Source: a virus. Taken from it: a DNA stretch of 20,632 nt. Both the position numbers and the translations under genes were made by a program. Position 1 is the stretch's first letter, and each line of letters starts with the position of its first letter. The notes beneath the pieces were generated by a model. It was not told the origin of the DNA, did not search any database, and worked only from the letters and a program-made list of their open reading frames with translations. Shown here one piece after another: positions 1 through 20,307 of this stretch. The stretch covers positions 1 to 20,632 of the IMG/VR virus record IMGVR_UViG_3300030118_001181; one strand, 5' to 3'.

Positions 1-1218
1 ATATGTGGACCAGGACCTAAATTTAAACCACAAAACAGAAGTGGTAAAGCGTGGTCATCTACAGAGTTTACTGTAGGTACTAGAACAGTTACAGGTATTA
101 AATCACCGACAATGGTAGGCATTGGTCGTGGTGGTAAGATACTGTCAAGAGACTGCGATATTATTATTGCTGATGACATTGAAGATCACAGTTCTACTAT
201 GCAACCAGCATCAAGAGAAAACACAAGAAACTGGTGGACAACAACATTGTCAAGTCGTAAAGAGGAACACACCGCTATGGTAGTTATTGGTTCTAGGCAA
301 CACTATGATGACTTGTACTCACACTTGTTAGAAAACGAATCTTGGAAAACTATTGTAGAAGAAGCACACGATACAGCTTGTACTTTACCTGACTGGGATG
401 AAACAGAACACAATGATTGTATGTTGTGGACAGGTAAAAGAACATACAAGTGGTTAATGGACAGAAAAAGAGCAGCAGAGACAACAGGTGGTAGAGCAAT
501 ATACGAAATGGTTTATCTTAATGTAGCTATGCCAGATGGTCTTGCTTTGTTTGACAGAGTAGAGATAGAAGAGTGTAGAGATCAGAAAAGAGATATAGGA
601 CACATACCACCAGGTATTCGTTTGATTGCAGGACTTGACCCTGCATCTACAGGTTATCAAGCTGCGTTTTTGTGGGCTTACAATATGGATGCTAACAAAT
701 TGTATATGGTAGATATGAACAATAGTTTAGGTGGCGGTATACCACAAGCATTAGAAATTATAAAAGAATGGTGGAGCAAATATAATTTATCACATTGGGT
801 AATAGAAGAAAATGGTTTCCAAAAAGCTATTAGACAAGATAAAAGCATAAGAGAGTTTGCATCAAGTCATGGTATATTTTTGGAAGGACATGAGACATAT
901 AAAAATAAATTTGACCCAGTGTATGGTGTAACAGCTATGAGACCTATGTTTCAAGAACAAATAATTTCTTTACCATATCTTAGCTTTGAAGCACAAGAGA
1001 AGGTAAACTTATATACAAGTCAGTTAGTTTACTTTTCTTCTGCAAAAAATAAAAGCAAAAGTGTAGGTACAAAAACTGACATAGTTATGGCAAGTTGGTT
1101 TCCAATGAGAGCTATAAGAAGAATGCAAAAAGAAAAATTTGCAGAGTTAGGATATGAATACAATCCTAGCTTTACTGGCTATAATTCAAGTAATATGGAT
1201 ATAGATAATTGGAGTTAA
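1..1218 (+). CDS. terL: Terminase large subunit, 5'-truncated by the window edge
   Basis: This is the motor ATPase and nuclease that packages phage DNA into the prohead by docking on the portal. The frame is open from base 1, so the first ATG at 112 is internal; 405 residues are visible. Residues 54-62 form the Walker B strand (IIIADDIED). Residues about 98-110 carry the ATPase coupling motif (IGSRQHYDDLY), like the GTRxHxDDL motif of phage terminases. The C-terminal half is the RNase H-like nuclease: D213 in GLDPAS, E269/E270 in IEENG and D360 in KTDIVMASW are the probable metal ligands. Walker A lies upstream of the window. The stop is 4 bases before the portal gene, the usual terminase-portal neighbourhood. 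The family call is strong; the terminase subtype cannot be settled here. Confidence 0.93.
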   Translation: MCGPGPKFKPQNRSGKAWSSTEFTVGTRTVTGIKSPTMVGIGRGGKILSRDCDIIIADDIEDHSSTMQPASRENTRNWWTTTLSSRKEEHTAMVVIGSRQHYDDLYSHLLENESWKTIVEEAHDTACTLPDWDETEHNDCMLWTGKRTYKWLMDRKRAAETTGGRAIYEMVYLNVAMPDGLALFDRVEIEECRDQKRDIGHIPPGIRLIAGLDPASTGYQAAFLWAYNMDANKLYMVDMNNSLGGGIPQALEIIKEWWSKYNLSHWVIEENGFQKAIRQDKSIREFASSHGIFLEGHETYKNKFDPVYGVTAMRPMFQEQIISLPYLSFEAQEKVNLYTSQLVYFSSAKNKSKSVGTKTDIVMASWFPMRAIRRMQKEKFAELGYEYNPSFTGYNSSNMDIDNWS

Positions 1219-1222
1219 ACAG

Positions 1223-2983
1223 GTGTTAGACAGCAATAAAATATACGACAGAATAGATTACCTTAGAGTTGTAAATCAAGAACAAATGATTGATAGGTCA
1301 AGGATTAGAGACATAATGAATGGTGGTGAAGCTGGAGTACATGCTTTATTAGGTAAATCAATAAATGTAGAATACCACGAATTACCAGCACCTAATTTAT
1401 TTTTAACTGCGTTAGAAAGATTTGCACAAAAATTAGGTAGAAGTCCAGATTTAAAAGTAGATATAGTAAATCAAAAAGATTCTGAAAGAGCAAAAAAGAA
1501 ATCTGAAAAATTAGAACGCATTGTAATGGCGTATGATAAAAACCAAAAATTAAACATGCAACTACCACAAGTTGGTAGATGGCTACCAGGTTATGGATTT
1601 GTTGTATGGGTAGTCAAACACAAAAAAGATAAAGATGGTAATCCATATCCTTACGCAGAATTAAGAGACCCATTTAGTTGTTACCCAGGTTATTTTGGTA
1701 ACGATCAACAACCAAAAGAACTTGCAATAATAACTAGAGTTCCACATAAAATTTTAGCCGATCAATATCCAGAAGCTAAACCATACATATACGCACAAGA
1801 AGATAATGATGGATTTCAAAATGCATACTCTGCATTGATGAATGGTAATGATAAGTCTGGAAGTTGGGCAAGTTCAACAGGGCATGGCAAAGTAGTAGTA
1901 GAGTATATGAACGAAGATGGTACATATGTTTATTTACCAGAAAACAAAAAAACTATTGACTACATGGAAAATCCATTAAAATCTGGTCCATGTTTTGTTA
2001 TAGCTAAAAGATACAGTTTTGATCAGATGCAATCACAATTTCAACACATTACTGGTCTTATGGCAAATATGGCAAAAATAAACATACTTGGAACTATTGC
2101 CATGGAAGATGCAGTGTTTACAGAAACAAACATAATTGGTGAGATTGAATCAGGAAAATATAGAAAAGGCAGATTTGCTGTTAACTATTTAACACCTGGT
2201 TCGCAAGTGTCAAAGCCAGTCAACAATCTACCTTATCAATTATTTCAACAAGTAGATAGACTTGAAAGACACTTGCGACTTGGTGCTGCTTATCCAGTTT
2301 CTGATGATGGACAATCACCTAATTCTTTTGTTACTGGTAGAGGATTAGAAGAGCTTGGACAATCTGCATCACTGCATGTAAGAGAATATCAATCAGTATT
2401 AGCAAATGCATTAGAAGAACTTGATGCTAAAAGATTAGAATATGATGAATCAATGTTTGGTAATACAAGAAAACCAATAGCAGGTTTTCACAAAGGAACT
2501 GCTTATAGAGAAAACTACACACCATCTGTAGATATAAAAGAATTTTACAATACAAGAAGAGTCTATGGTGTTATGGCAGGATTTGATGAGCCACAAAAAA
2601 TTATTACAGGGTTGCAATTAAAACAACAGGGTATTATTGATACACAAACATTACAAGAAAACATGGATGGGTTAGATAATATAACTAAGATACAACAAAG
2701 AATATCTGCAGAAAAAGCTGAAACAGTATTGTTTGAGTCTTTAATGGCACAAGCTGCACAAGGAGATCCAAAAGCAACTATGGCAGCTATAGAAATAAGA
2801 AAAAATCCACAAAACATGACAAGAATTATGGATAAATTTTACACACCAGAAGAACCAACTATGACAGAAGAAGAAATGTTACTAGCACAACAACAAGCAG
2901 CAGGTGTACCACAAGGACCAGTTGCTGAACCAGACATAGCAAGTGTATTAGCTGGATTAGCAGGTGGTGGTCCAGTTGCCTGA
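1223..2983 (+). CDS. Portal protein
   Basis: This is probably the dodecameric portal ring at the capsid vertex through which DNA enters and leaves. The start is a GTG at 1223, supported by GGAG at 1211-1214, 8 bases upstream and inside the end of the terminase gene. At 586 residues it is within the usual portal size range. It shows the expected layout: a helical N-terminus, a central alpha/beta region with an aromatic-rich stretch (PFSCYPGYFG, about residues 150-160), and a C-terminal helical part including SPNSFVTGRGLEELGQSAS (about 366-384), like the portal clip/crown segment before the long helix. The last 40 residues are low-complexity (Gln, Ala, Gly, Pro). Placement directly after terminase and before scaffold/capsid supports the call. 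I infer function from layout and overall look, not from a catalytic motif. Confidence 0.85.
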   Translation: MLDSNKIYDRIDYLRVVNQEQMIDRSRIRDIMNGGEAGVHALLGKSINVEYHELPAPNLFLTALERFAQKLGRSPDLKVDIVNQKDSERAKKKSEKLERIVMAYDKNQKLNMQLPQVGRWLPGYGFVVWVVKHKKDKDGNPYPYAELRDPFSCYPGYFGNDQQPKELAIITRVPHKILADQYPEAKPYIYAQEDNDGFQNAYSALMNGNDKSGSWASSTGHGKVVVEYMNEDGTYVYLPENKKTIDYMENPLKSGPCFVIAKRYSFDQMQSQFQHITGLMANMAKINILGTIAMEDAVFTETNIIGEIESGKYRKGRFAVNYLTPGSQVSKPVNNLPYQLFQQVDRLERHLRLGAAYPVSDDGQSPNSFVTGRGLEELGQSASLHVREYQSVLANALEELDAKRLEYDESMFGNTRKPIAGFHKGTAYRENYTPSVDIKEFYNTRRVYGVMAGFDEPQKIITGLQLKQQGIIDTQTLQENMDGLDNITKIQQRISAEKAETVLFESLMAQAAQGDPKATMAAIEIRKNPQNMTRIMDKFYTPEEPTMTEEEMLLAQQQAAGVPQGPVAEPDIASVLAGLAGGGPVA

Positions 2984-3188
2984 TATTAATAAAAAATTTT
3001 TTGATATTATAAATCAAGAAGATTGGAATCCAATAGTAGATGATATTGATCCAACTATACATACACAATATATATCGCAAACTGATGTACCATTAGGTAA
3101 CATGTTTTTACCTACACCAATACCTGGTGTATGGATAAGTTTATCTTTAGGTTTTGAAATAGAAAATCCAGAGGAGGATCGGTGGTAA
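2964..3188 (+). CDS. Small protein of unknown function after portal
   Basis: This 74-residue protein is not recognised. It overlaps the portal end by 20 bases in the +1 frame. The start is uncertain. GTG at 2964 or 2967 is possible, but TTG at 2976 sits 8 bases after AGGTGG (2962-2967) and would give a 70-residue protein starting MPDINKKFF. The protein is acidic, with many Asp and Ile, and no membrane segment or cysteine. A proline-rich, hydrophobic stretch near residues 46-62 (NMFLPTPIPGVWISLSLGF) looks like the core of a small beta fold. Its stop overlaps the next gene by 7 bases, so it belongs to the same translated chain. It may be a small head or virion component; nothing in the sequence fixes its role. 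Confidence 0.6.
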   Translation: MVVQLPDINKKFFDIINQEDWNPIVDDIDPTIHTQYISQTDVPLGNMFLPTPIPGVWISLSLGFEIENPEEDRW

Positions 3189-3559
3189 GAAAAAAAAGTA
3201 AGTTAAAAGAATTTACAGACATGAAAGCAGATGTTGACAATGCAGGTCTTTATGTACCACCAAGAGCTGAAGGAGACCCTTATGGACAAACAAAAGATTT
3301 ACAAACACAAGTAGATGCGGTTGGCGGTCCACTAGCACAAGAAGTAGCTGCAACAGGCGGTATGCCAAATGTAGATAATTTACCAGTTATGTCAGGAGAT
3401 CAATTATTTGACGCTCCTACACAACTACCAGATCAACCAGGGAATACAATTACAGATACATCACAAATATTTAATCCAGAATCAAACAGGGTAGAAGTAT
3501 TAAAAAATATAATATTAGAAAAATATCCACATAGAGCAATTAAAAATAGGTTGTTATGA
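3182..3559 (+). CDS. Small virion-associated protein, unknown function
   Basis: This 125-residue protein is not assigned to a family. The GTG start at 3182 follows a very strong ribosome site (AGGAGG at 3172-3177, spacing 4 bases), better than that of its neighbours; an in-frame ATG at 3221 has no such site. The N-terminus is lysine-rich (RKKSKLKEF). The middle, residues about 25-95, is low in hydrophobics and rich in Pro, Gly, Gln and Asp (for example DAPTQLPDQPG), so probably disordered. The last 25 residues form a likely amphipathic helix with a basic end. Short disordered proteins of this sort occur beside portal genes in podovirus-like genomes. Its stop overlaps the giant gene through ATGA, so the two are translationally coupled. 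Confidence 0.7.
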   Translation: MVRKKSKLKEFTDMKADVDNAGLYVPPRAEGDPYGQTKDLQTQVDAVGGPLAQEVAATGGMPNVDNLPVMSGDQLFDAPTQLPDQPGNTITDTSQIFNPESNRVEVLKNIILEKYPHRAIKNRLL

Positions 3560-6500
3560 GTTATTTCACTAAGTGGAGTGAAGATTGGCTTAATGCAAAA
3601 AATGAAAGAGAAGCACTTAGTCAATTCCAAAACAATGAAGAGGCAACAGCAGATACTGATTTATTAACTAAAAGATATTACGAATTAGAACAATTTAATC
3701 CTAGAGAAGATGAAAATTTATTATCAGCATTAGCTAGTGAAAATGCTACTAATACCGATTATTACAATTTATGGAAAACAACTAATAGTAATGATTACAG
3801 AAAATATTCTGGTTATGTTCCATTAGAAGCAAAAGAACATACTTCTTTTGTAAAATCTGCATTAGCATTAGATTTTAAAAATCCATTAAGAATAGGTTCA
3901 TTAGTAAGAAGAGGTTTAGATGCAAGATACCCAGGAACTAATTTTTCTAGCACATTGTGGAATGGTGCATTATTATCTTTGGAATCAATAACTTATCCAT
4001 TTCAAAGTATTTTTGGTCCAGCTATGGGTATTGAATATGAAGCAGCAGCAGATCGTATAATGAAAAATAGAGGCGATACATCTGGTGCAAGAAGTTTTAG
4101 AAGCTACCCAGGAGAACAAGGGGAACAAAAAAAATTACCATGGACAGTAAGGGCAAGGGCAGGTTTAGAAGCATATGTAAAAGGGTATGGTTTATCTGGT
4201 ACAGCAGGTGCTATTGCTGGTGCTAAATTAGGTGCTACAACAGGTAGTGCTGCAGGACCAGTAGGAACATTTATAGGTGGCAGTTTAGGTGCAATAGGTG
4301 GTGCTATTCTTGGTGCAACAGGACAAGCTATTGTCGGTGGTGGTTACGAAAATAATCCAGGTATTAAAAATGATTTTATTAGATTTGCACCTAGTGAGTC
4401 TGCATTAGAGTATCTAGGAGAAATAGGTGTTGATTACAAAAAAATAGAAGAAGATAATATTACTAATTTAGGTGCTGTATTAGAAGCTGCACCAGATATA
4501 TACAACAAAAATTTGCAAGTAGTTACAGATGGTAAAAAAAGAGAATTAACATTTAGTGAAAAAGCAGATGTATTTTATTTAACTGCAAATGAATTATTGG
4601 CAGCACCATTAACAGAAGAACAATCTGCAATAGAAATATTTAACACAGGTAAAAGCATTAATGTGCCGCAATTTTTTAATAGAAGCGAAGTGTTAAATGA
4701 TGCGATAAGAAGTAGAGATGGTTTGTATGCACAAGGTATAACAGCAAATGTAGGAGATTATTACAGAATGGCATTGTTAGGAAGTATGGAAAATAAATAT
4801 TCTCCTAAATATGCACTTACAGAAGAAATAGATGAAGCATACGAAATATCTGTATTGGCTATTAGACAGTTATTAGCACAAGGAGATATTACAGAAGAAC
4901 AACAAAAATTATTACTAGAAGATATAGAAACTACTGCTAACGAAATGTATTCAGAACTTAAATTTAATCCAGACACAAAAGGTGCTGGTAGATTTTTATC
5001 AGGATTGTTAAATTTTTATATAATGTATAAAACAGATCTGTTTGTAATGGGAAGTAAAGGTGTTGGTGTTGCAGGTAAAAGTGTAGATACTGATTTAGTA
5101 TTAGCAGGATTAGGTAAACAATACAATGATGAAGTTATTAAAGGCGGAATGGAAGTGTCAGAGTGGTGGGCTAAAAATGATGATGCATTAAGAGGATGGA
5201 CTAATAAATTTCAACAATTAATGGAAGAGTCACCAGATGCACCAGCATTGTTAGCTATGGTAGAAAATGGTATGCACCCAGAGTTTGCATTAAGATTAGT
5301 AGATAATCCAAGTGCAACTTACGATATATTAAAACAAGGAGTTACAGAAGGATTTGTAGCTGATGTAAGAGCAGGTTCAAGAACTATACCAGGAAGCAAA
5401 GGTCCTATTGGTGGTGAAACAGTTGGTGATGCAGTGCAATATGCATTACAACCTAAAGTATTAGATGATGCATTTATAGACAATATAGCAGATTTAATGA
5501 AGGGTAATGTAGATGAAGTATTTAACCAAGCTGCATATTCAAGAACTGGTAGTGTTTTAGATATATTTTTAGGCAGAGATAGAAGATTGCCTTCTATGCC
5601 ATGGGGTGATTTATCTAACCCACAAAATGCAGCAGATACATTTTTTAAAGTTGCAAACATGTTATCTATACCAGATCCAGTCATAGAAAAGTATTTAAGA
5701 CAATTTGTTCGTGCAGTACAAAATGGAGACCAGGCACTAGCACAAAAAATATACTATGACGATTTGCTTAAAGTAGAAGGTGCAATACAACTTAAAGCAT
5801 TGTTTGGTTTGTCAGATGACGAGATAGCAAAGTATTTTCAAAAAAACATAGATGAAGTTAGAGGGTTCGGTGTTGAAGGCGGTATATATAATGCTTCTAT
5901 ATTAAATAAATTTAGAGACCCAGATTTTATAAATGTAATTGTTAAAAAAACATTTGGTAATTTATTTGCTAATGAAGAAGATTTAATAAAATTTTCAGAA
6001 AAATTTATTTCTATAATAGGACAAACTAGAGATATGTCTATTGCTGTGCCTAACCTAAGACAAACATTACGATACACAGGTTTAAAAAGAAAATTAAGAA
6101 ACAGATGGAGTGGCTCAAAGACAGTAGACGAAAGTATAGCAACAATCAGAAAAGCACATGATGAAGGTGTACCTGGAACATTTTTTGACCCAGATACACC
6201 TTTAGGAGAAATTACAAAAGGTGCATTTGCAGATATGAAAGATCCATCATTGTTGTATAGAGGTCTTGAAACAGGTATTGGTTTAGCTGAAACAGGATTA
6301 TTTACTGCAATATCAAGAGGATGGATGCCATTACAATTATTATTTAGATTATCTTTCCCATTAAAAGTTATGTTAGATGGACAATTAAGAATGTCAGCAT
6401 TAGGTATAGACTCATTATTTAGAAATCCTGTTGGCTTACTTAAATTACTTGCTAATGACCCAGAAGGTTATTTAGCAAAAGGATTAGGAATAGATGTATT

Positions 6501-9500
6501 TACTGGGCTACAAGGACCATTTAGAACTGTATCAGAAAAAGGTCCACAATTTCTGCCAAGGTCTTTGCGTAAAGTTATGAATCTTGTACAAGAAGGTAAA
6601 CAAGAATATTCTATTCCAGAAGTTATGGCTATGTTTGCAAGAGACCCTAAATTTACATCACAGTTTACAAAACCAACTGACCTATGGGATGAAGCATTAA
6701 AACAAGGTACAAAAAATGTTAAGTTAAAAGATGGCACAGTATTACCTTTTGTGCCAAATGATGAATTTATAGAAGCATATGTAGATTTCCTAGTCACTCA
6801 ATTAGTGCATGATCCATTAATGCCAACAATAGCAAGAGGGTTAAGAGAAGGGTTAACAGATGATGAAATGGTAAAACAAATACTTGATAGTCAAGAACTA
6901 ACACAAGAACTGTTAACACTCAATCAAAGAATTATTGCAAGAAATCAAAAAAATGGTGGAGTAAAAATTGTAAAAATAATAGAAGATGACACAGATGTAG
7001 CAAACATAGTTGCACAATATAGACAAACTATAAATGGTTTTGCTGGTGGTAGTGATGACATTATTGATGTTATTGGAAATGGCACAATAAAAGGTATAGA
7101 TTTAAAGAGTTTTAGCATATTAAAACAAACACAAGCAACAAAAGCTAAAAACGAAATACAAAAAATTATGCAACCAGTGTACGAAGATTTACCTAGCTCT
7201 GTACCAATGTTAAGTAAAAATGTTAATAAAGAAGCAGCTAATTTTGTTACATCTTTTTTTGACAGTATGTTTTTTGCTGTAGGTCAGCTTGAAGCAGTAT
7301 GGTCCAGAATACCTACATTTAAACAGGCATACTTTTATTTCTTAGAAAACAACATACCATTTGCACAAAAAGAAGCATTAGCAGAATTACTTGCAAAACA
7401 TTTTGATCCAGAAAGTGTAATTAAATTACCAGACAATATTGTACAGTTAGCAAAAGAAAACTTAGAAGCAGCAAGAATAACACCAGAAGAGTTGCAATCT
7501 ATAATGAATGCAAAAGTACCAGTAAAACTTCAATACAATGCTAACTCTATAGATACAGTTCTTTATAACACAGAGGGATTGTTTGATGTTAGATTGTTTA
7601 GAGGTACATCTGCTACAGATGAAATAGTATTTGATTTAGATTTACAGAAAGCAGAGTTTACAGCTTTTAAAACTGAAAGAGAAATAGCTAATGTAAGAGC
7701 AGGTGCAAACAATACAAAAATATCTGCATATGCAGCGTCTATACATGATGAAGCGTTAATAGTAAATGGCGGTTTGTCAGAACAACAACTAACAAAATTA
7801 AAACAAAATTTAACTACAAAATTAGAAGATGATGCATTAGTTGACAAGATAATAGATGATTTTGCAAAAGCATTAGAAGATAATCCAGGTATGTCATACG
7901 CAGAAATATTAGAAAGATTAGGTATTAGTAACAAAGAATTTAATATTGCAAAGATTACAGATGATTTAAGAAAAGGTAGACATAAAGAAGGTGATGTAAA
8001 TCCAGCAATAATTAAAAGAGTTTTAGATTTAGATACCAAACGACCAATACCAAATAAAAAAATAATAGATGGTGAAGAAAGAAATATATGGAATGATGCA
8101 AATTCAGGACAGTTTGGTGGTAGTTATGATTTAAGTAAAAAAGTAGCAGATTCACAAGACATGGATTTCTTAGAGGGTATATATGTTAGTCCATATGCAA
8201 CTAGAGTTAAAAAAGTTAAATCAGATGTTGAACCTGGCACTATAGCACCAGTAGAAATACCAAAATCAGAATTTACTCCACAAGTTATAAAAGAATACAT
8301 AGAAACAAATAAAGATTTGTTACGAAGGCAGGGACATTACTTAGGTATATGGGATGATGGTAGCACAGTTTATATAGATGTTTCTATAAAAATACCATTA
8401 AAAGAACAAAGAGGATTACTAGATGAACAAATTGCTAAAGCTATGTATGTAGGTCTGTTGTCAGAACAACAATCTATAGCTGTTATTAAAAAAGTTTCTA
8501 CTCCTACTGTGGGTGCAGATGGTAAACAAGTTGTTGTAGATACACTTGAAATATCATATCCAAAAGTTTACAAAAAAAATGGAATTGCATCACACACATC
8601 ATTAAATTACATAAAACAATATGGAACAGAATTACTAGAAAGTATTAATAAACTTAATTCATTAATTAGAAACACTGGTGTTGCACCAATAGTTAAAGGC
8701 AAAAGAGGTAAAGTTAACAGTAACAATGTGTTATTTAGTTCAGGTATGCATGGTAATTTAAACACTATAGATGATGCTAATAAATTAATATTGTTCGGTG
8801 GTAAAGATAATCCACAACTAAACAAACTTACACAAGTAGATTATTTTTCTATGCTAGATTTGCATGGCATTAGATCTAATCTAAAAAGAAATATGACTTA
8901 TGACGATTTAGACAGAAGAGCAGCAGAATATGGATATGAGCTACATAACAGATTATTGTATAACTTGCTAGAAAGAGGTTATTTAGCTGAAGCATATCGT
9001 GTTGCATTACCATTCTTTGAAGCATATAGAGAGGTGTTAGGTAGATATGCAACATTAGGTGCTGTAAATACTAGAGCAGCAGCACAAGTACAACACATTT
9101 ACAGAAGAGGTGTAGAAACAAATATTATATATGAAGATAAGTATGGAGAAAAATATCTAATACTACCAGTAGGTGGTACACCATTAGAAGATTATGTTAA
9201 GTCTGAAGGTAGAGGCACATGGGTAAATGATATGGATATAGATGATTCTAAAGTTATATTAAAAAGAGGAATACCAATATCTGCATTAGGTGTAGCAGGT
9301 GGTGGTTTATATCCACCATTAGGACCAGTAGTAGCACTGCCAGTAGGTTATCTGACAAAAGATAAACCAGATCTTCGTAGAATGTTTGAACGAACAATAT
9401 TTCAGTTTGGTTTGCCATTTGAATCAAGAGGCGACACATTTGTTGGTGAAGCATTAGAAGAATCAATGCCATCAGTAGGTAGAAATTTATTAGGTGCAGT

Positions 9501-10716
9501 ATTTGGTGAAAATTCACCATCATTTGGTTTAGATGAAGATATATGGTTTAGATCTGTAAACGAAGGATTGCAAATTGCAGCAGTATTATATCCAGATATA
9601 GCACAAGATTTTGAAGCATTAGAACCTGTAGCACAACAAATAGCAAAAAATATTTATCAATTAAAAGCATGGGATAGATTTATAAATCCATATGCACCTA
9701 ACTTGCGTTTGTTGTATGAAGTAGATGTTAATGATGAAATGTTTGCAAAATGGTATGGAGAAAAAGGTGAGGAATCAGGATTAATGTGGAACTCTTTTGT
9801 AGAGTTAGCAGTAATACATACATATTACAGAGACCTGAGAAGTTATTATTCACATTATATGGGTACAAGAGCTGCAGACTTTGAAGCAACAAAACAAATG
9901 GTATTGCTTTTTGACTTAGGCAAGTATGACTTAGAAGATAGTTATACATCTATAGCATTAGTAAAGCAAGGTAAAAAAATAACAGAGTCTGGTAAATTAC
10001 CAATGACAAAACCAGAGTATGACTTTGTCAATGACAATGAAGAAGATTATAAAAAATATGGTGGATCAATATTATATTTTTTTGAGGGTCTTGGTACAGG
10101 TGATGTAGATTACTCCGCATATCAATCATTAGATAACTTAGGTAAAGTTACACCATTAACACCAGATGAGTTCTTTTATTCTGCTGCTATGTATGGTTCA
10201 TCTATTGTAGAAAGGGCATTAAAAAATGCAGAAAGAAAAAGATTACAACAAGCAGGTTATTCAAACACAGACGACTTGTGGAAAATTAGTATGGCAAAAA
10301 TAGATATTAAATTAAGAGAAATGTTTCCACTTGCATATGGTAGAGATTTAGGTGAGTTGTCAAAAATAGATGGTTACAGCACTGTATCTAATCAAGAGTA
10401 TGACATAGAAATAAGAATGATGGAAGAAATTTATAAAGACAAAGCATTTAAAGATAGTCCAGTGTTTCCATTTTTAGAGGAGTATTTAATTGCAAGAGAA
10501 AGCGTAATAGCATCTGTAATGACAGTTAAACAACAACCAACAAGACAGGATGCTATAGACTTTATAACTCGTAATGATTCAGAAGATGCACAAGAAATGA
10601 GAGATATACTGTATTATAAAGGTGTAGAGATAGCTAAGAAAAACTATATGTTTGCTATCATGTTTGATGAGATATTTTATGAGGAAATATCTTACTATGG
10701 AATAGGAACAAGCTAA
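3556..10716 (+). CDS. Giant 2386-residue virion protein, probably ejected
   Basis: No enzyme family is recognised with confidence. The ATG at 3556 overlaps the upstream stop (ATGA), with only a short AGG at 3548-3550. Residues about 213-266 form a glycine-zipper segment (GAIAGAKLGATTG, GGSLGAIGGAILGATG), a pattern seen in membrane-inserting proteins. Residues 916-960 form a second hydrophobic block (WMPLQLLFRLSFPLKVML, then DGQLRMSALG). Residues about 1590-1680 look beta-rich (DDGSTVYIDVS, 1601-1610). Residues 1905-1930 (ISALGVAGGG, PPLGPVVALP) recall segments I associate with other very large phage proteins. The rest is mainly helical, without tandem repeats. Position after portal, a lysozyme-like neighbour and the zipper suggest an internal virion protein ejected to form a channel. 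A tape measure is less likely from the location. Confidence 0.8.
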   Translation: MSYFTKWSEDWLNAKNEREALSQFQNNEEATADTDLLTKRYYELEQFNPREDENLLSALASENATNTDYYNLWKTTNSNDYRKYSGYVPLEAKEHTSFVKSALALDFKNPLRIGSLVRRGLDARYPGTNFSSTLWNGALLSLESITYPFQSIFGPAMGIEYEAAADRIMKNRGDTSGARSFRSYPGEQGEQKKLPWTVRARAGLEAYVKGYGLSGTAGAIAGAKLGATTGSAAGPVGTFIGGSLGAIGGAILGATGQAIVGGGYENNPGIKNDFIRFAPSESALEYLGEIGVDYKKIEEDNITNLGAVLEAAPDIYNKNLQVVTDGKKRELTFSEKADVFYLTANELLAAPLTEEQSAIEIFNTGKSINVPQFFNRSEVLNDAIRSRDGLYAQGITANVGDYYRMALLGSMENKYSPKYALTEEIDEAYEISVLAIRQLLAQGDITEEQQKLLLEDIETTANEMYSELKFNPDTKGAGRFLSGLLNFYIMYKTDLFVMGSKGVGVAGKSVDTDLVLAGLGKQYNDEVIKGGMEVSEWWAKNDDALRGWTNKFQQLMEESPDAPALLAMVENGMHPEFALRLVDNPSATYDILKQGVTEGFVADVRAGSRTIPGSKGPIGGETVGDAVQYALQPKVLDDAFIDNIADLMKGNVDEVFNQAAYSRTGSVLDIFLGRDRRLPSMPWGDLSNPQNAADTFFKVANMLSIPDPVIEKYLRQFVRAVQNGDQALAQKIYYDDLLKVEGAIQLKALFGLSDDEIAKYFQKNIDEVRGFGVEGGIYNASILNKFRDPDFINVIVKKTFGNLFANEEDLIKFSEKFISIIGQTRDMSIAVPNLRQTLRYTGLKRKLRNRWSGSKTVDESIATIRKAHDEGVPGTFFDPDTPLGEITKGAFADMKDPSLLYRGLETGIGLAETGLFTAISRGWMPLQLLFRLSFPLKVMLDGQLRMSALGIDSLFRNPVGLLKLLANDPEGYLAKGLGIDVFTGLQGPFRTVSEKGPQFLPRSLRKVMNLVQEGKQEYSIPEVMAMFARDPKFTSQFTKPTDLWDEALKQGTKNVKLKDGTVLPFVPNDEFIEAYVDFLVTQLVHDPLMPTIARGLREGLTDDEMVKQILDSQELTQELLTLNQRIIARNQKNGGVKIVKIIEDDTDVANIVAQYRQTINGFAGGSDDIIDVIGNGTIKGIDLKSFSILKQTQATKAKNEIQKIMQPVYEDLPSSVPMLSKNVNKEAANFVTSFFDSMFFAVGQLEAVWSRIPTFKQAYFYFLENNIPFAQKEALAELLAKHFDPESVIKLPDNIVQLAKENLEAARITPEELQSIMNAKVPVKLQYNANSIDTVLYNTEGLFDVRLFRGTSATDEIVFDLDLQKAEFTAFKTEREIANVRAGANNTKISAYAASIHDEALIVNGGLSEQQLTKLKQNLTTKLEDDALVDKIIDDFAKALEDNPGMSYAEILERLGISNKEFNIAKITDDLRKGRHKEGDVNPAIIKRVLDLDTKRPIPNKKIIDGEERNIWNDANSGQFGGSYDLSKKVADSQDMDFLEGIYVSPYATRVKKVKSDVEPGTIAPVEIPKSEFTPQVIKEYIETNKDLLRRQGHYLGIWDDGSTVYIDVSIKIPLKEQRGLLDEQIAKAMYVGLLSEQQSIAVIKKVSTPTVGADGKQVVVDTLEISYPKVYKKNGIASHTSLNYIKQYGTELLESINKLNSLIRNTGVAPIVKGKRGKVNSNNVLFSSGMHGNLNTIDDANKLILFGGKDNPQLNKLTQVDYFSMLDLHGIRSNLKRNMTYDDLDRRAAEYGYELHNRLLYNLLERGYLAEAYRVALPFFEAYREVLGRYATLGAVNTRAAAQVQHIYRRGVETNIIYEDKYGEKYLILPVGGTPLEDYVKSEGRGTWVNDMDIDDSKVILKRGIPISALGVAGGGLYPPLGPVVALPVGYLTKDKPDLRRMFERTIFQFGLPFESRGDTFVGEALEESMPSVGRNLLGAVFGENSPSFGLDEDIWFRSVNEGLQIAAVLYPDIAQDFEALEPVAQQIAKNIYQLKAWDRFINPYAPNLRLLYEVDVNDEMFAKWYGEKGEESGLMWNSFVELAVIHTYYRDLRSYYSHYMGTRAADFEATKQMVLLFDLGKYDLEDSYTSIALVKQGKKITESGKLPMTKPEYDFVNDNEEDYKKYGGSILYFFEGLGTGDVDYSAYQSLDNLGKVTPLTPDEFFYSAAMYGSSIVERALKNAERKRLQQAGYSNTDDLWKISMAKIDIKLREMFPLAYGRDLGELSKIDGYSTVSNQEYDIEIRMMEEIYKDKAFKDSPVFPFLEEYLIARESVIASVMTVKQQPTRQDAIDFITRNDSEDAQEMRDILYYKGVEIAKKNYMFAIMFDEIFYEEISYYGIGTS
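4192..4353 (+). other. Glycine-zipper membrane-like segment in the giant protein
   Basis: Residues about 213-266 of the 2386-residue protein contain Gly or Ala at every third or fourth position (GTAGAIAGAKLGATTG, then GGSLGAIGGAILGATG) separated by Ile, Leu, Val and Ala, with almost no charge apart from one Lys. Two helices joined by a GPVG turn is the simplest reading. Such glycine zippers pack transmembrane helices tightly and occur in channel-forming proteins. In a virion protein this suggests insertion into the host inner membrane after ejection. This is inferred from composition; no topology program was run. Confidence 0.6.
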
Positions 10717-11669
10717 TGTTAAAGAATTTTATTATACAATACGATACAGTATCTAATGTAGATGAAGGTACAGATCCTATAACAATTCTTACAGATGATG
10801 AAAATGGTATACCTGTAGACCCTGGATTAGCACAATCAATAGTAGATAGACTTGTAGATGAATTAGGTTTAGATTCTAACAAACCACTAGGAATAGGTTT
10901 TAAAAGTAAATACAAAGTAATGGTTCTTGATGATGTATTAGGTGTAGAAGCACCTATGGATGTAGATGCAGAAGATTATTTAAGGTCACAAGGTTTTAAA
11001 TATATATATTTTCCAGAAGATATTACACAAGAAGGTGGTGCATTTGGTCCTAAGATAGTAGAACAAATGAAAAATATGATGGCAACAATAGGATTTATAA
11101 ACATAAACAAAACTACTGGCGTACAAAAAGATGCAGAGTATTACAAAGGTATACAAAAACTTATGGAGTTTTCTATGAATAATAAGGGTAAGTTTACTTA
11201 TGTACAAGGATTAAAAATATTGTACAACGCAACCCTTGCAGGACAAGCTCCTGTACAACAATATCAAATGGACACAGATGAGATGGATGAATTAGTAGAT
11301 GATTACATTGGTAAAGCAGAAACTAAAAAAGGTAGTCCATTAACAAAAAATGAAAAGGATTATTTAACAAGACAACTAAATGCTAAGCTAGGAGACTTTA
11401 GTTCTTCACTTGCAAACTTACAACCAGCATCAACAGCAAGGATAGAGTTTGATGAAATGTCAGGTGTGGCTACAACTATACCTGGACAAGAGGCAGAGCA
11501 ACCAGATGTAGAAGGTTTAGAAGATGATTTATCAGGAGTCGTAGATGAATTTATTGCACCAAGAGAAGAATTAGCAAGACAAGCAGATATAGAATCAGAT
11601 GCAGCTACAAGATTTGCTAGAACAATGGGTAGTTTGTCAGCAGCAGAAAGTGATAGAGTAAACAGATAA
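10716..11669 (+). CDS. Acidic protein of unknown function in the giant-protein cluster
   Basis: This 317-residue protein is not recognised. It starts at the ATG of TAATG overlapping the giant gene's stop by one base, with AGGAA at 10704-10708, 7 bases upstream. The N-terminal half (1-110) seems alpha/beta (IGFKSKYKVMVLDDVLG, GFKYIYFPEDI). The middle (about 110-235) is helical and includes KFTYVQGLKILYNA and SPLTKNEKDYLTRQLNAKL, which look like short helix-turn-helix packing modules found in phage structural proteins. The last 80 residues are acidic and probably disordered (QPDVEGLEDDLSG) and end in a charged helix. There is no signal peptide, transmembrane helix or catalytic motif. It lies between the giant protein and the lysozyme-like protein, so a role in the same virion complex is likely. 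Confidence 0.75.
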   Translation: MLKNFIIQYDTVSNVDEGTDPITILTDDENGIPVDPGLAQSIVDRLVDELGLDSNKPLGIGFKSKYKVMVLDDVLGVEAPMDVDAEDYLRSQGFKYIYFPEDITQEGGAFGPKIVEQMKNMMATIGFININKTTGVQKDAEYYKGIQKLMEFSMNNKGKFTYVQGLKILYNATLAGQAPVQQYQMDTDEMDELVDDYIGKAETKKGSPLTKNEKDYLTRQLNAKLGDFSSSLANLQPASTARIEFDEMSGVATTIPGQEAEQPDVEGLEDDLSGVVDEFIAPREELARQADIESDAATRFARTMGSLSAAESDRVNR

Positions 11670-12733
11670 TGGCAACTACAGCAGAAGTTATAGAAGCGTT
11701 AAAACAAGAGGGTCTTGCAGATGATGTAATAAAAATGCTTGTACCTATACTTGCTTACGAATCAAGAGTAGATGGCGTTCCATATGTACTTACCGCTATA
11801 GATTCTGAATCACCATCTTATGGGTTAGGTCAAGCAAACATAACATCAATGGAATCTGCATATTGGATGGCATTTAACGAACTTAATATAGATCTGCCTG
11901 GTCAAACGCAACAACAAGCAGACCAGTGGAGAAGAGCAGGGTATGATGTTAATGAAGAAGATGTAAGAGACTTTACACCAGAACAAAAAGAATTTGTAAT
12001 TAATTACATGAAAACTGCAGATTTAGAATTTAACGCTAAATTAGTAAAACACATGTTGCATCAAAAAGAATTAGAACAAGACTTAAATCCTATGGATGCA
12101 ATAAAAGATTTGTATAAATTAACTATTGCTAAATTTAATCAACCAGATAGACATCCAGAAACTGCAGCGTTTAAAAGCGATATAGATGCAGAAGTTGAAG
12201 AATATTATAGTATGCCACCAACCACAACCACAGTTCCAGAAACTACTACAACTACAGTTCCAGAGACTACTACAACAACTACGCCAACGACTACAACAAC
12301 TATGCCAGAAACAACAGTACCACAGGTAGATGTAGGTTTTGACGAAAGAAGTCCTGGCATAATAAATCAATTTGGTACACCTCCACAAGATCAAATAAAT
12401 ACTGGTGCAGGTGGTAACCAATCATTTGCGGATAATTTTAATGAAAATTTTTCTGAACCTGTTGGTCCAATAACACAAAAAATTAGAGATAAATACAATT
12501 CAAAAGAACAAAAAAGTATTACACAAATTATTGAAATGTTACTTGCTACTACTAATAAAAGAAGAGCTGAAAAAGGAATGAAAGAACTTGATAAAAAAAA
12601 CATATTAGAAAAAAGAATGAGCAATTTAATAGACAGAGATAATCAATTTTTTAGAGAAACAGGGAAAATGCAATTTCCTGGTAGTAGTGTTCCTTTCAAT
12701 ATAGAGGATGTAACAGACTTTTTAGACGAATAA
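11669..12733 (+). CDS. Virion-associated lytic transglycosylase-like protein with Thr/Pro linker
   Basis: This is probably a peptidoglycan-cleaving enzyme that opens the wall during DNA entry. Residues 29-58 resemble the active-site region of SLT/goose-type lysozyme folds: a helix ending in YES with candidate catalytic E31, then SPSYGLGQANI (48-58), matching the S-x-GL-x-Q signature. Residues about 182-219 are a low-complexity linker almost entirely of Thr with VPE, TPT and MPE breaks. Residues 220-354 form a Gly/Asn-rich stretch and then a charged helical tail (KRRAEKGMKELDKKNI). There is no signal peptide, as expected for a virion-packaged enzyme rather than a secreted endolysin. The start overlaps the previous stop in TAATG and has no clear ribosome site, so coupling is likely. 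The lysozyme fold is inferred from a short motif. Confidence 0.72.
   Translation: MATTAEVIEALKQEGLADDVIKMLVPILAYESRVDGVPYVLTAIDSESPSYGLGQANITSMESAYWMAFNELNIDLPGQTQQQADQWRRAGYDVNEEDVRDFTPEQKEFVINYMKTADLEFNAKLVKHMLHQKELEQDLNPMDAIKDLYKLTIAKFNQPDRHPETAAFKSDIDAEVEEYYSMPPTTTTVPETTTTTVPETTTTTTPTTTTTMPETTVPQVDVGFDERSPGIINQFGTPPQDQINTGAGGNQSFADNFNENFSEPVGPITQKIRDKYNSKEQKSITQIIEMLLATTNKRRAEKGMKELDKKNILEKRMSNLIDRDNQFFRETGKMQFPGSSVPFNIEDVTDFLDE
12212..12328 (+). repeat. Thr/Pro low-complexity linker coding repeat
   Basis: About 39 codons, mostly ACA, ACT, ACC and ACG, encode repeats of the form VPE plus four to six Thr. The codons for Thr are mixed, so the protein composition and not just the DNA seems to be maintained. 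Such linkers are common in extracellular proteins of actinobacteria, above all Acidimicrobiia, and act as flexible, extended spacers between a catalytic domain and an attachment domain. Here it separates the lysozyme-like domain from the helical C-terminus. Confidence 0.85.
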
Positions 12734-12734
12734 A

Positions 12735-15700
12735 ATGGCAGAGGAAAAATTACCTGATGCTGATGAAATAAAAATAGTTGGTATTTTTGCTAGTACAAGA
12801 ACTACACCAGATGGACCAAGTTTAGTTTACGCAGACATAAATGACATATTTGATTTTGTTGAATATGACAGAAGAGAAATTTCTGCATTTGGACAACAAA
12901 AATCTGATAGAACTATTGATGCAATTAAAAAAACAATATATGAAAAAGGTTACTTGTTTGACATAGGAGAATCATACAATAGTTCTATCGCATTTCCAGT
13001 TTCTATGGGAATTAATGGAAGAATACAAATAGGAGAAGGTAACCATAGATTAAGAGCAGCTTATGAAGTAGCACAAGAAACAGGACAAACAATATATGTA
13101 CCAATATATGCTTACCCTTCTAATGTAAGTGTTGCAGGTGATAAATTTTTTGGAGGGGTGTATCGTGGTAAATCACGATTTGTTGGCGAACAAACACTGT
13201 TTGATGCTTTAAGACAATTAATGTTTGATTCAGGTGCTGACGATTATGCAGTTGATGACAAAATTGGAGAACGATTAGGTTCAAAAAGTCAATATACAGG
13301 CAGTAATTATTTAGGTTCTGGTGGAACTGGTGGTAATAGCGTAAGTCAAAAAGATATGAAAAAGTTTTTTACTGCTATAGGAGTAGAGGTTTTAACTTAT
13401 GATGAATTACCAGAAGATAATGTATACAAAACAGGAATTAATAATTTAACAAACACTACAAATGTAGTAGATGAAGGCATAGAGTTATTTCATGGAAGAG
13501 GTAAAGGTAGTAGAGTTCCAGAAGATTTACATGCAGGTACATATCAAGCAGCAGTAGATAGAAATGCATTTATGTTTGGTAGCGAAAATATGTATGAAAT
13601 GATATATGAAATTAAAAGAGATTTTGTAAATCAAGTTGCAGAAGCATTAGAGAACATAGAGCTAGATGATGGTTCATTTTATACCACAGACTATTTACAA
13701 CCAGAAGTTTATTTACCTAATGGTAATGTTGATACTTATGACATAAGAATAGATGTATTAGAAGATGGAACAGTAGATGTTGTATTAGGTAAAGATGGTG
13801 AAGAAATAGCTACAGTGTTTAATGATAGTAGTGCTGGGTATGTCATTGATGAATTAGAAGATGGTACTAATTTATATTCACAAATTAATCAGGAAAAATT
13901 AGAGGACATTATACAAAATAGAGATGTAGATAAATATTTTGGAGAAGCAGGAGGGTTTTTAGATCCTGATAGAAGTTTTAAATACGAAAATGGTTATGAA
14001 TTATATAGAGTAACTATTAGTCCAAATGCAAAAGTTGTAGAGTTTACAGAAGATATACAGATGGTGTTGGATGGAAAACCAAAATCTATAGACCCAGATA
14101 TATTTGTAAATTATTTAGAATCTGGAAATTTAGCTACTGTAGATGAAATTTTATTACCAAATGGTAAGACAATAACACTATCAGGAAGTAATAAAGAAAA
14201 AATAAATATCTTAAAAAATGAAATGGATGTTGTTGGTTACAGAAATCAAATGGAAGATGTCGGTAGTACATCTTATTATTTTTTAAACAAAGATGTTTAC
14301 ACAGAGACACCAGTAGATGCAGCATTTAATAAACAATTTGATGAGGATGTACTTAAAAAGTTTGTACAAAATGATCCATACAGAGATTTAGATGCATTTG
14401 ACACCGCACCTATAGACAGACAAAGGTTAGCTAAAACATTTATGGGAGAAGTAGAAGATATTGCTGATGGCAAACCACTATTAGAAACAAGAATGTTACC
14501 TGGTGATGACCGATTACAATGGGCAAATGATGTTATAAAACCTAACAAAATTTTTAATCCAGATGCTTTAACTAGATTAGAAAGTTCAGAACCTGGTGAC
14601 GAAATGAGATATATTTGGAATGATACAACAGAATTTAAGCCAAGTGAATTGTATTCTAGGATAATAACTAACACTGCTACTGATGAAGATATAACTAAAT
14701 TTTTTATTTACTTAGCTACACATAGCGAAACACAAGCATATGCTAGACAACCATTTAGTAAACCAGATGCTATTGCAGATATTGTAAAAATAGGAATATT
14801 TAGTGATTTACCATTAGACGAAATAATACCTATGGGTCAACCATATTTTGAAGCAAAATTTATAAACAATTTAAAAAGTAAAAACATATTAATAGGAGAC
14901 GAAATATATAAAGTGTTAGTTAATTTAGTAACTGAACAAGGACAGTTTGCTAATTTAAAAGAAACAATGAGAAATGTAATACTAGAAGCTCACAGAGATA
15001 TATACGCTGCAAACCCTAATGATTACTTTATTGTATGGAGAGGTGGTGATTTAAATAGATTCGTTCCTTGGCAATCAACAAGTAAAAGTTATGGGTCTGC
15101 ACAAGGAGTAATGTATCAAATGGTACAAGGTGGTTATGGTGGTGGTAGATCTGTAGACACTTATGTAGTACATAAAAATAATATGATAGATTTAGATGCA
15201 TTAGGTTTATCGTATAGTAATGAAAAAGAAATTATTGTATTAACTGAAGAATTAAAATCACCTCTTGCAAAAAGACCTACAACAATAGAAGGTAGAAAAG
15301 ATATTAGGTCAATAAATGATTGGTGGTTATTAGCTAGAGAACGAGAAGAGTCATTTCCAAAAGATGGCAAGGTCATTACAAACATATCACAACCACTTAC
15401 TGATGCAGGTCAATCTACACAAAATTGGTTTAGTGATGTAATTGATGGTATTGATCCTAAATACAAACCAAAAAAACCATATCAACAAATAATAGAATTA
15501 AATAATCCTGCATTATACGCTTTTCAAGATGACTACAATGCTTTTATAAAAGGCGGTGGTAATTTTAATCAACACATATTTACTTCTATACCTACATTTT
15601 ATGAAACACAAGTTGCAAAAATGCAAGGTATAACAAATATGATTAACAAAAATAAACTTGTAGTTGGTGATATGTCAGGACCAAGACCATACAGAATATT

Positions 15701-17156
15701 AGACATAGGTGGAACTGAAGGTGCATGGGCAAAAGCTCTTGCAAAAAATAATCCACTTGTTGATATACAAGTATTAGACCCTAATCTAAAAGCTAAATTA
15801 GCTTTTGAAAGTGGAGATATAGTTACTAATGCACAATTTTTACATGCAGCATTTACACATGTTGTAAAAGATCAAGGCAAACCATTTGTAGAAGGTGGTA
15901 TTAAACAACCTGTATTTTTCCAAGGGTTTAAAAAGCCATACGCTGATATTGTGCATGAATCTATGGCATTTCAATTTATGAGTAATGAGAGAGCAGAACA
16001 AATAAAGTATATTAAAGAAAATGTGTTGAATACAAATGGTGTATTAATAATAGAAGAAAAGTTTTTAGATGACAATCAAGCAATATATGACGCTAATGAA
16101 GCTAAAAAAAATAATTTTAAAGCAGAGTATTACACACCAGAACAATTAGCAGATAAAAAATTAAATGTGTTATTAGATATGGAAGGTAATCAAGTAGCAG
16201 TACAAGAGGTTCAAAAAATATTAGGTGAGAATTTTAATAGTGTAGAACAATATTGGGATGCTGGAAACTTCAAAGGTTTTGTAGCATCAGATGATGCAAA
16301 AAAAGTAGAAGATTTTACAAATGGTATTAATGATGTAGGTTTATCACTAACTAATCATAGCTACTCTACTGCACCTAATAACACTGATATTAAAGGTGCA
16401 ATAGAAAGACAAATGTTTAACAAAGGTACAGATAGTAAACTTGCTGCACAATTAGCAGAAGAGACAGTAAAACAAAATCCTAAGTTTTTTGAAAGAGCCG
16501 CAAATGCATTAAACAATTTTGATCCTTCTTTATCAGCAACTAAATTACTTAGTAGATTAGGAGTTGTTGCTGCACCAGCGTTAAATGTATTAGGTAGAAC
16601 AGCACCACTATACGCACCTGGTGATGTATTTATAGAAAAAGTTGTAGAAAAAACTGTGCCATATTTAGATGACGCAGCAGCTAGATTAGGTTTTGCTAGA
16701 ATACCTTTTAACAAATTATTACCAACATACATATCTTATGAAATAGGAGTAGCATTAGCTGATGTTGCACAAGCAGCTTTGTATGCTTATGATGAATCAC
16801 AAAAAAAAGGTCCAAGACAAGCTAGTAATTTTCAGATAGGATTAACTAAATTATTATTACCAAAAGCATATGAAGAAGAAGCAATAAAAAGAAGTCAGAT
16901 ACCAGGAGATTTACAAGCATTTTATAATACACCTACAGGGAAAAAAGTGTTAGAGGAAGTAGATTTTGGTAGTCAATTTATGAAAGAATTAGAAGCAGAA
17001 AAAATATCTAAGTATTCTCCAGGATGGGGTTTAACTAAAGGATTGTTTAATATAGTCGGTAGCGTCTATGATGCTAGTCAAAACCCTAGTGATTATACTA
17101 CAAAAGTTAAAGAAAATCCTGCTAGTATATATAATGCAGGATTCACAGGAAGATAA
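12735..17156 (+). CDS. Polyvalent virion protein: ParB-like, two ADP-ribosyltransferase-like and methyltransferase domains
   Basis: This 1473-residue multidomain protein is probably packaged and ejected. Residues about 13-130 are ParB/sulfiredoxin-like, with GEGNHRLRAA at 100-109. Residues about 245-520 match ADP-ribosyltransferase-like domains of phage polyvalent proteins: FHGRG (252-256), LHAGTYQAAVDR (265-276), and YRNQMEDVGSTSYYF near 502-516. Residues about 755-840 form a second ADP-ribosyltransferase-like domain: R769 in VWRGGD, STS at 781-783, ExE at E830/E832. Residues about 985-1130 are a Rossmann SAM methyltransferase: LDIGGTEG (D990), VLDPN (D1015), IVHESMAF (1072-1079), then VLIIEEKF. 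The C-terminal 220 residues are Ala-rich and partly hydrophobic. The gene starts one base after the previous stop with no ribosome site. Targets are unknown; activity is inferred from motifs. Confidence 0.8.
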   Translation: MAEEKLPDADEIKIVGIFASTRTTPDGPSLVYADINDIFDFVEYDRREISAFGQQKSDRTIDAIKKTIYEKGYLFDIGESYNSSIAFPVSMGINGRIQIGEGNHRLRAAYEVAQETGQTIYVPIYAYPSNVSVAGDKFFGGVYRGKSRFVGEQTLFDALRQLMFDSGADDYAVDDKIGERLGSKSQYTGSNYLGSGGTGGNSVSQKDMKKFFTAIGVEVLTYDELPEDNVYKTGINNLTNTTNVVDEGIELFHGRGKGSRVPEDLHAGTYQAAVDRNAFMFGSENMYEMIYEIKRDFVNQVAEALENIELDDGSFYTTDYLQPEVYLPNGNVDTYDIRIDVLEDGTVDVVLGKDGEEIATVFNDSSAGYVIDELEDGTNLYSQINQEKLEDIIQNRDVDKYFGEAGGFLDPDRSFKYENGYELYRVTISPNAKVVEFTEDIQMVLDGKPKSIDPDIFVNYLESGNLATVDEILLPNGKTITLSGSNKEKINILKNEMDVVGYRNQMEDVGSTSYYFLNKDVYTETPVDAAFNKQFDEDVLKKFVQNDPYRDLDAFDTAPIDRQRLAKTFMGEVEDIADGKPLLETRMLPGDDRLQWANDVIKPNKIFNPDALTRLESSEPGDEMRYIWNDTTEFKPSELYSRIITNTATDEDITKFFIYLATHSETQAYARQPFSKPDAIADIVKIGIFSDLPLDEIIPMGQPYFEAKFINNLKSKNILIGDEIYKVLVNLVTEQGQFANLKETMRNVILEAHRDIYAANPNDYFIVWRGGDLNRFVPWQSTSKSYGSAQGVMYQMVQGGYGGGRSVDTYVVHKNNMIDLDALGLSYSNEKEIIVLTEELKSPLAKRPTTIEGRKDIRSINDWWLLAREREESFPKDGKVITNISQPLTDAGQSTQNWFSDVIDGIDPKYKPKKPYQQIIELNNPALYAFQDDYNAFIKGGGNFNQHIFTSIPTFYETQVAKMQGITNMINKNKLVVGDMSGPRPYRILDIGGTEGAWAKALAKNNPLVDIQVLDPNLKAKLAFESGDIVTNAQFLHAAFTHVVKDQGKPFVEGGIKQPVFFQGFKKPYADIVHESMAFQFMSNERAEQIKYIKENVLNTNGVLIIEEKFLDDNQAIYDANEAKKNNFKAEYYTPEQLADKKLNVLLDMEGNQVAVQEVQKILGENFNSVEQYWDAGNFKGFVASDDAKKVEDFTNGINDVGLSLTNHSYSTAPNNTDIKGAIERQMFNKGTDSKLAAQLAEETVKQNPKFFERAANALNNFDPSLSATKLLSRLGVVAAPALNVLGRTAPLYAPGDVFIEKVVEKTVPYLDDAAARLGFARIPFNKLLPTYISYEIGVALADVAQAALYAYDESQKKGPRQASNFQIGLTKLLLPKAYEEEAIKRSQIPGDLQAFYNTPTGKKVLEEVDFGSQFMKELEAEKISKYSPGWGLTKGLFNIVGSVYDASQNPSDYTTKVKENPASIYNAGFTGR
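12771..13125 (+). other. ParB/sulfiredoxin-like domain
   Basis: Residues about 13-130 of the 1473-residue protein. The order fits the ParB N-terminal fold: a strand with Arg/Glu (YDRREI), a helix (TIDAIKKTIYEKG), a strand (IAFPVSM), then GEGNHRLRAAYEVAQ at 100-114 and VPIYAY. In this fold the G-x-x-R region binds nucleotide. Known versions act as CTPases, nucleases or in polyvalent phage proteins. I cannot say which activity applies here. Confidence 0.7.
13468..14295 (+). other. ADP-ribosyltransferase-like domain 1 (polyvalent type)
   Basis: Residues about 245-520. The start has LFHGRGKG and LHAGTYQAAVDR, the H-G-x and H-x-G-T-x-x-A-A pattern of the polyvalent-protein ADP-ribosyltransferase-like family. 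The end has YRNQMEDVGSTSYYFLN, which matches the family's closing strand (Y-x-N-x-x-E-D-x-G-x-x-S-Y). The centre (about 320-420) holds an inserted beta-rich stretch that reads YTTDYLQPEVYLPNG and DVVLGKDGEEIATV. Whether it still binds NAD is not known. Confidence 0.62.
14997..15254 (+). other. ADP-ribosyltransferase-like domain 2 with R, STS and ExE
   Basis: Residues about 755-840 show the three signatures of the R-S-E class in order: R769 in IVWRGGD, S781-T-S783, and E830-K-E832 followed by IIVL. Between them is SYGSAQGVMYQM, a helix typical after the STS strand, and DTYVVHKNNMIDLDALG. The ExE pair is the arginine-modifying signature in well-studied enzymes such as T4 Alt. The Arg-to-STS spacing of 12 residues is short for classical toxins but plausible for phage variants. 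Confidence 0.68.
15687..16125 (+). other. Class I SAM-dependent methyltransferase domain
   Basis: Residues about 985-1130. Motif I is LDIGGTEGAW with D990, G992, G993 and G996 forming the SAM loop. The acidic residue closing strand 2 is D1015 in VLDPN, motif IV is the ADIVHESMAFQF strand (D1071, E1075), and the later strand is GVLIIEEKF. Substrate is unknown: I do not see the NPPY or DPPY of N6-adenine enzymes, nor a PC motif of cytosine-C5 enzymes. A protein, RNA or small-molecule target is open. Confidence 0.78.
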
Positions 17157-19851: not shown

Positions 19852-20307
19852 ATGGACAATAGAATAATGGCAGAAGAACTAAACAACCCTGACACTGAAG
19901 GCGATAAGAACTGGAAAGAGATGAGGGAGAAACTAAATCTCTACGAAGCAAAGATCGCAGAATACGAAGGTAAAGAAAGACAAGAAGTTTTTAAACAAGC
20001 AGGTCTTGACACTACTAAAGGTGTAGGAAAAGCAGTTGAGATGATGTACGAAGGTGATTTAACTGTAGAAGGAATCCAACAATACGCATCAGAAGAATTT
20101 AAAGTTGAGTTTGGGAATCAAGACAGATTACAAGAAAATGTAGAACAAAGTCAAGAAAGACTGGACAACATACAAAAAAATTCTGTTGTAGATCTTTACA
20201 ACACAGATGTAGTATCGCAGGTTAGAGATATAGAAAAATCAGGAACTGTGCGTGATTCAATAGCTGCCAAGCTCTCTGTTATAGAAGAAGCAAAAAAGAA
20301 CAACTAA
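19852..20307 (+). CDS. Capsid scaffolding protein
   Basis: Probably the internal scaffold that guides capsid assembly and then leaves the prohead. It has 151 residues from the ATG at 19852, or 146 from the ATG at 19867 (MAEELNNPD). Neither has a good ribosome site, so the start is open; the second gives an N-terminus more typical of such proteins. It is highly charged and helical with no cysteine. Residues about 19-45 look like a coiled coil (KEMREKLNLYEAKIAEYEGK), followed by FKQAGLDTTKGVGKAVEMMY and LTVEGIQQYASEEF, which resemble the central motif of scaffolds in actinophage-like genomes. The position just before the major capsid gene is the classical scaffold slot. It is the first gene after the internal promoter. 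Confidence 0.8.
   Translation: MDNRIMAEELNNPDTEGDKNWKEMREKLNLYEAKIAEYEGKERQEVFKQAGLDTTKGVGKAVEMMYEGDLTVEGIQQYASEEFKVEFGNQDRLQENVEQSQERLDNIQKNSVVDLYNTDVVSQVRDIEKSGTVRDSIAAKLSVIEEAKKNN

Follow-up and report, generated by a model that had tools for sequence, protein, structure and literature searches.

The window analyzed here is a 20,632-nt stretch of viral DNA (IMG/VR record IMGVR_UViG_3300030118_001181, positions 1 to 20,632), on whose plus strand the genes lie in the order terminase, portal, small protein, giant protein, peptidoglycan-directed proteins, gp13-like protein, small gene, and major capsid protein. The terminase large subunit (1..1218; its 5′ end is cut by the window) and the portal protein (1223..2983) are assigned by homology. 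They are followed by a 125-aa protein of unassigned function (3182..3559), conserved upstream of the giant in uncultivated relatives, and then by the giant itself (2386 aa, 3556..10716). Downstream come a 317-aa protein, likewise without assigned function and conserved at this place in close relatives (10716..11669); a 354-aa protein (11669..12733); a 1473-aa multidomain protein (12735..17156); a 544-aa protein (17157..18791); a 291-aa protein (18791..19666); a 151-aa protein that by its position may be a scaffold (19852..20307); and the start of a further gene (20367..20630). In a longer relative (L005, locus L147), this last place is taken by an SU10-type major capsid protein, followed by tail-fibre-like proteins. 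A hairpin that resembles a terminator, by consensus match only, lies between the 291-aa and 151-aa genes (19713-19736).

The giant's ORF begins with an ATG at 3556, its stop codon ends at 10716, and it runs in one reading frame without interruption; both ends overlap the adjacent genes. The first-pass annotation had described a single ORF with no tandem repeats, and this holds: Tandem Repeats Finder reported nothing inside the giant, and self-BLASTP gave only the trivial self-match. Scans of IMG/VR returned ten clear related loci in the first round and fifteen in the second. These relatives are 58-98% identical in their best segment (67-98% for the close ones), and their gene order is identical to that of the window where the flanking DNA suffices. 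Substitutions in the giant are mostly synonymous, and the dN/dS ratios of about 0.16-0.24 (0.160 vs. L001, 0.163 vs. L005, and 0.242 vs. L002) indicate purifying selection; the gene is real and conserved. In one contig (L013, 1379-8472), two ORFs of 1757 and 609 aa take the place of the single giant gene; their frames overlap near 6646, owing to a frameshift or an assembly error.

Direct searches with the giant against Pfam, NCBIfam, PHROGs, and PDB gave nothing useful, tblastn against cultured phages and a scan of the genome collection returned zero matches and zero relatives, and a direct scan of the giant (P0001) against phrog_10618 was likewise empty. At this level the initial description of a protein with no clear family stands; at the profile level it does not, and the giant joins the phrog_10618 family. 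The window's terminase and portal are ∼24% identical to their counterparts in Beephvirinae phages of Streptomyces, whose genomes encode a hypothetical protein of 1635-1648 aa (gp9) at the giant's position. A scan based on the terminase brought up 80 uncultivated loci. In all of the terminase-linked ones with at least 2.9 kb of DNA beyond the terminase (41 out of 41), a family giant lies downstream of the portal. Family members follow the terminase, the portal, and one or more small proteins, and precede a gp13-like protein and the capsid gene.

A first hhalign comparison of shallow profiles with Beephvirinae gp9 fell below significance; deep profiles were later significant. With profile membership built iteratively from the fetched loci, and with E-values that refer to a small database, a profile made from uncultivated giants only recovered full-length gp9 homologues (E = 9e-20 to 2e-10), matching in three colinear blocks (window residues about 473-769, 1219-1278, and 1785-2047). 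Shorter gp9 fragments matched more weakly (down to about 5e-6), and the giant of ct2KA10 joined at 3e-7, or at 2.5e-19 with the full profile. The predicted model of the C-terminal half (residues 1188-2386; mean pLDDT 63.8) matched by Foldseek a protein of phage Manuel (E = 2.2e-4) and proteins of uncultured phages (E down to 8e-10), support that is incompletely independent since Beephvirinae rows are present in the alignment behind the model. The N-terminal model (mean pLDDT 48.6) is too poor for interpretation or Foldseek. From these profiles, we regard the family assignment as solid; Beephvirinae gp9 corresponds to phrog_10618, which is annotated as function unknown, and no annotated function comes with the assignment. 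Deep-profile matches in PDB to 9hnh_A (per-domain i-E = 0.064) and to "Cake" proteins were taken as chance or repeat matches.

Among the four landmarks that the first-pass annotation had pointed out in the giant, all are present, and they differ in how widely they are shared. Most of residues 1-210, 260-1290, and 1785-2386 are occupied in most uncultivated relatives, while residues 213-266 and 1300-1780 are unoccupied in most of them. The glycine zipper (residues 213-266; 4192..4353) has 30 Gly and Ala in 54 residues, compared with at most 21 in 200 shuffles, and its longest GxxxG chain of five was equalled in three of 500 shuffles. As judged from the alignments, it is confined to close relatives and fast-evolving (dN/dS 0.53-0.59). 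The second hydrophobic segment (916-960; 6301..6435) lies inside the conserved core, where it forms a motif, W-P-QL-R...R...LR, with conserved Arg and Pro. The core further contains the three blocks common to Beephvirinae gp9: block 1 (about 473-769; 4972..5862), block 2 (about 1219-1278; 7210..7389), and block 3 (about 1785-2047; 8908..9696). The last of these holds PPLGPVVALP (1917-1926), in which P1920, G1923, and P1924 reach 90% conservation or more across the C-half alignment, counting Beephvirinae; in many relatives, no stretch is more hydrophobic than the PPLGP region.

The beta-rich block (1590-1680, with strands predicted at about 1594-1600, 1604-1613, 1642-1652, and 1658-1667) falls within a variable insert (about 1300-1780; 7453..8895) that Beephvirinae and many uncultivated relatives lack. 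Thus two of the four landmarks, the 916-960 segment and the PPLGP block, belong to the shared core, and the glycine zipper and beta block are accessory pieces, so that membrane insertion of residues 200-270, a test suggested earlier, would be uninformative on the general function of the family. Gly, Pro, and Arg dominate the most strongly conserved core positions, which also include a few Asp, Glu, and Phe, and inspection of the alignment revealed no obvious catalytic residue set in the conserved core. An HTH_24 match within the variable insert (1439-1459; E = 0.01, below the cut-off) was not used.

The beta-rich region (about 1575-1680; 8278..8595) behaves as a mobile domain, resembling phrog_17808 proteins that stand alone in actinophages. 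Three relatives (L061, L062, and L066) carry it elsewhere in the core, near position 1037 (i-E = 2e-16 to 9e-18). Its resemblance to the stand-alone gp106 of Rhodococcus phage Jflix2, which matches phrog_17808, has E = 0.04 by tblastn over the whole collection and 7e-8 in a single-sequence profile test uncorrected for the database. In the Foldseek search with the C-terminal model, a 139-aa protein of Gordonia phage Yvonnetastic was matched (E = 0.017, probability 1.00); this is probably Yvonnetastic gp202, since gp202 has 139 aa and is matched by tblastn to Jflix2 gp106. Other relatives carry other domains at other sites: a cpYpsA domain near core position 754 (above the Pfam cut-off in L102, at it in L100, and below it in L104) and a DUF7831 near core position 1100 (L100, E = 1.5e-34). 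With three domains at differing sites among relatives, sequence comparison describes the giant as a conserved core, or chassis, with exchangeable plug-in modules.

Several neighbors appear to be directed at peptidoglycan. The 354-aa protein has a conserved lysozyme/transglycosylase-like motif near its N terminus, seen by eye and with no profile match; a 24-bp tandem repeat of 2.2 copies in its gene (12224-12276) encodes a Thr/Pro-rich linker. The 544-aa protein has an N-terminal PG_binding_1 domain just below the Pfam cut-off and, in iterated searches, proves homologous to Beephvirinae gp11 (NlpC/P60) and gp12 (SLT). Both of the latter (L017-L019) appear in its profile results and thus resemble a duplicated pair whose N-terminal hydrolase domains have been swapped. 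A peptidoglycan-degrading function linked to the giant, one of the features of the ejection class, is thus represented by the below-cut-off PG_binding_1 domain in the window and by NlpC/P60 and SLT in the Beephvirinae homologues. The 291-aa protein belongs to phrog_8424 and has homologues in Beephvirinae (gp13) and in ct2KA10.

Ejection proteins are recognized mostly by synteny and size, with <10% conserved (PMC8954989). The earlier suggestion that the giant resembles ejected giants gains support from its genomic position and its neighbors, and we consider it probable that the giant is the largest internal virion protein (an "ejection" or pilot protein) of a short-tailed phage. From the location of its gene between the portal and capsid genes, the peptidoglycan-directed neighbors, which are as expected of ejectosome partners, and a short-tailed relative, we infer virion location and ejection, and with them a conduit role and functions for the inserts. 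The relative is Abafar: its giant and Immanuel3 gp9 are 81% identical, and microscopy shows this phage to be a podovirus whose tail measures 16 nm (PMC11536984). Other findings point the other way: The giant gene lies between the portal and capsid genes, compared with after both in T7 and P22, and searches turned up no sequence homology to known ejection proteins. A search of the literature for proteomic, structural, or genetic signs of any family member in the virion or being ejected found none.

As an ejection protein, the giant would probably be made late, together with the portal and capsid proteins, be packed in the head close to the portal, and exit via portal and tail into the host, before or with the DNA. 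The core that the family conserves, which in Beephvirinae spans about 1,600 residues, could then help to build a trans-envelope conduit for DNA, with the 544-aa peptidoglycan-binding, 354-aa lysozyme-like, and 291-aa gp13-like proteins as partners. The lineage-specific inserts (residues about 1300-1780 with the beta domain here; cpYpsA and DUF7831 elsewhere) would enter as extra activities or cargo.

Other readings of the same locus seem less probable. The giant might be a structural internal or head-tail protein (a core, connector, or portal-associated scaffold) that is retained in the particle, a reading suggested by a gene that adjoins those for portal and capsid and by the fact that ejection itself is what we infer. 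Peptidoglycan-directed neighbors and cargo-like exchangeable inserts point instead to delivery into the cell, and we think retention unlikely. The genes of phage polyvalent proteins lie close to virion genes, and injection of these proteins is presumed (PMC5512222), and the insertion of cpYpsA, DUF7831, and the mobile beta domain at different sites would suit an effector of this type, a carrier of conflict domains directed against the host with no role in DNA passage. However, Beephvirinae members consist of the core without these inserts, and that core, which has no recognized enzymatic domain, is present in 41 out of 41 testable loci; a purely effector role is improbable in our estimation. 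Disparate domains in one chain, as in polyvalent proteins, are found in relatives (cpYpsA and DUF7831), and the window's giant has only the beta domain, to which no activity is assigned.

Two further alternatives are very unlikely. A role in a long-tailed phage, as its tape measure or as a tail protein, would fit a long chain predicted to be largely helical, and PHROG families of tape measures and tail lysins are matched (E = 5e-5 to 0.07). These weak matches start at residues 210-215 and center on the glycine-rich stretch, which is missing from most relatives, so that the clear tape-measure or tail-fibre match named at the outset as the result that would overturn the first reading did not occur. 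By the tape-measure rule of 1.5 Å per residue used in PMC11536984, about 1,640 residues correspond to about 246 nm, against the 16-nm tail of Abafar, which excludes a tape-measure role for Beephvirinae gp9. Size, a single chain, and a late gene cluster would be shared with a virion RNA polymerase like N4 gp50, in this case a highly diverged one. Against this, we found no RNA polymerase match in PHROGs, Pfam, or PDB profiles; a direct profile test against N4 gp50 gave a best E of about 0.5 in scattered pieces; and Foldseek of the C-terminal half against PDB returned nothing below 0.001. The lack of a polymerase motif observed in the initial reading is therefore borne out, and we give this possibility scarcely any weight.

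The closest comparison is with Beephvirinae gp9 (FlowerPower, Immanuel3, WRightOn, and Abafar), which shares the homologous core in three colinear blocks, the location after portal and small proteins, and homologous downstream proteins of the gp11/gp12 and gp13 types. Unlike the giant, gp9 has about 1,640 aa and lacks both the glycine zipper and the 1300-1780 insert, and Beephvirinae genomes differ from the window in a tRNA cluster before the capsid gene and in their Streptomyces hosts. For the window, the terminase scan reached three MAG contigs labelled Gammaproteobacteria, Rhodobacteraceae, and Flavobacteriaceae, and these labels are too contradictory for a host to be named. The N4 virion RNA polymerase gp50 (Schitoviridae) is likewise a single giant chain in a podovirus virion gene cluster, although it has no sequence relation to the giant and different neighbors, and no polymerase signal was found in the giant. 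If ejected, the giant would act like T7 gp14, gp15, and gp16 or P22 gp7, gp20, and gp16 in leaving via the portal, and like them it is linked to a peptidoglycan-acting partner or domain. It differs from them in sequence and gene order, and its peptidoglycan domains are on separate neighbors.

With filters off, hmmsearch of the giant family against T7 gp14-16 and P22 gp7/16/20 gave nothing below E of about 1, and a corresponding search against N4 gp50-54 and phiEco32 gp21-26 found no homology. The giant may thus work like the ejection class by position and partners while standing outside those known sequence families. With polyvalent proteins (Iyer et al. 2017, PMC5512222), it shares the character of a multidomain giant near virion genes with lineage-variable domains, although it is mostly conserved core without recognized enzymatic domains.

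A giant without family assignment is now tied to cultured Streptomyces phages (such as Abafar and Immanuel3), which are harmless models, so its function is directly testable. If the ejection reading is true, the ejection proteins of T7, N4, and P22 gain a giant counterpart with no sequence relation to them, which is also an instance of natural domain swapping in a protein that has to traverse a narrow portal channel. More tentatively, an ejected chassis into which lineages plug different effector domains at sites about 754, 1037, 1100, and 1300-1780 could amount to a modular protein-delivery platform of short-tailed phages of very different hosts, an extension that we consider possible and rather doubtful.

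The 1473-aa protein is likely a cargo protein of polyvalent type. Its only profile match is in a methyltransferase region (phrog_4752, 2.7e-6), where DIGGTEGAW occurs at residue 990 (15690-15730). By eye, it also has a ParB-like GEGNHRL at residue 100 (13032) and an ADP-ribosyltransferase-like (ART-like) R / S-T-S / E-x-E arrangement at 15036-15240 (WRGG 768, QSTSKS 780, and EKE about 830). A second ART-like stretch (LFHGRG...HAGTYQAA, 13485-13600) is absent from the L002 and L108 homologues, which suggests whole-domain gain or loss in this protein as well.
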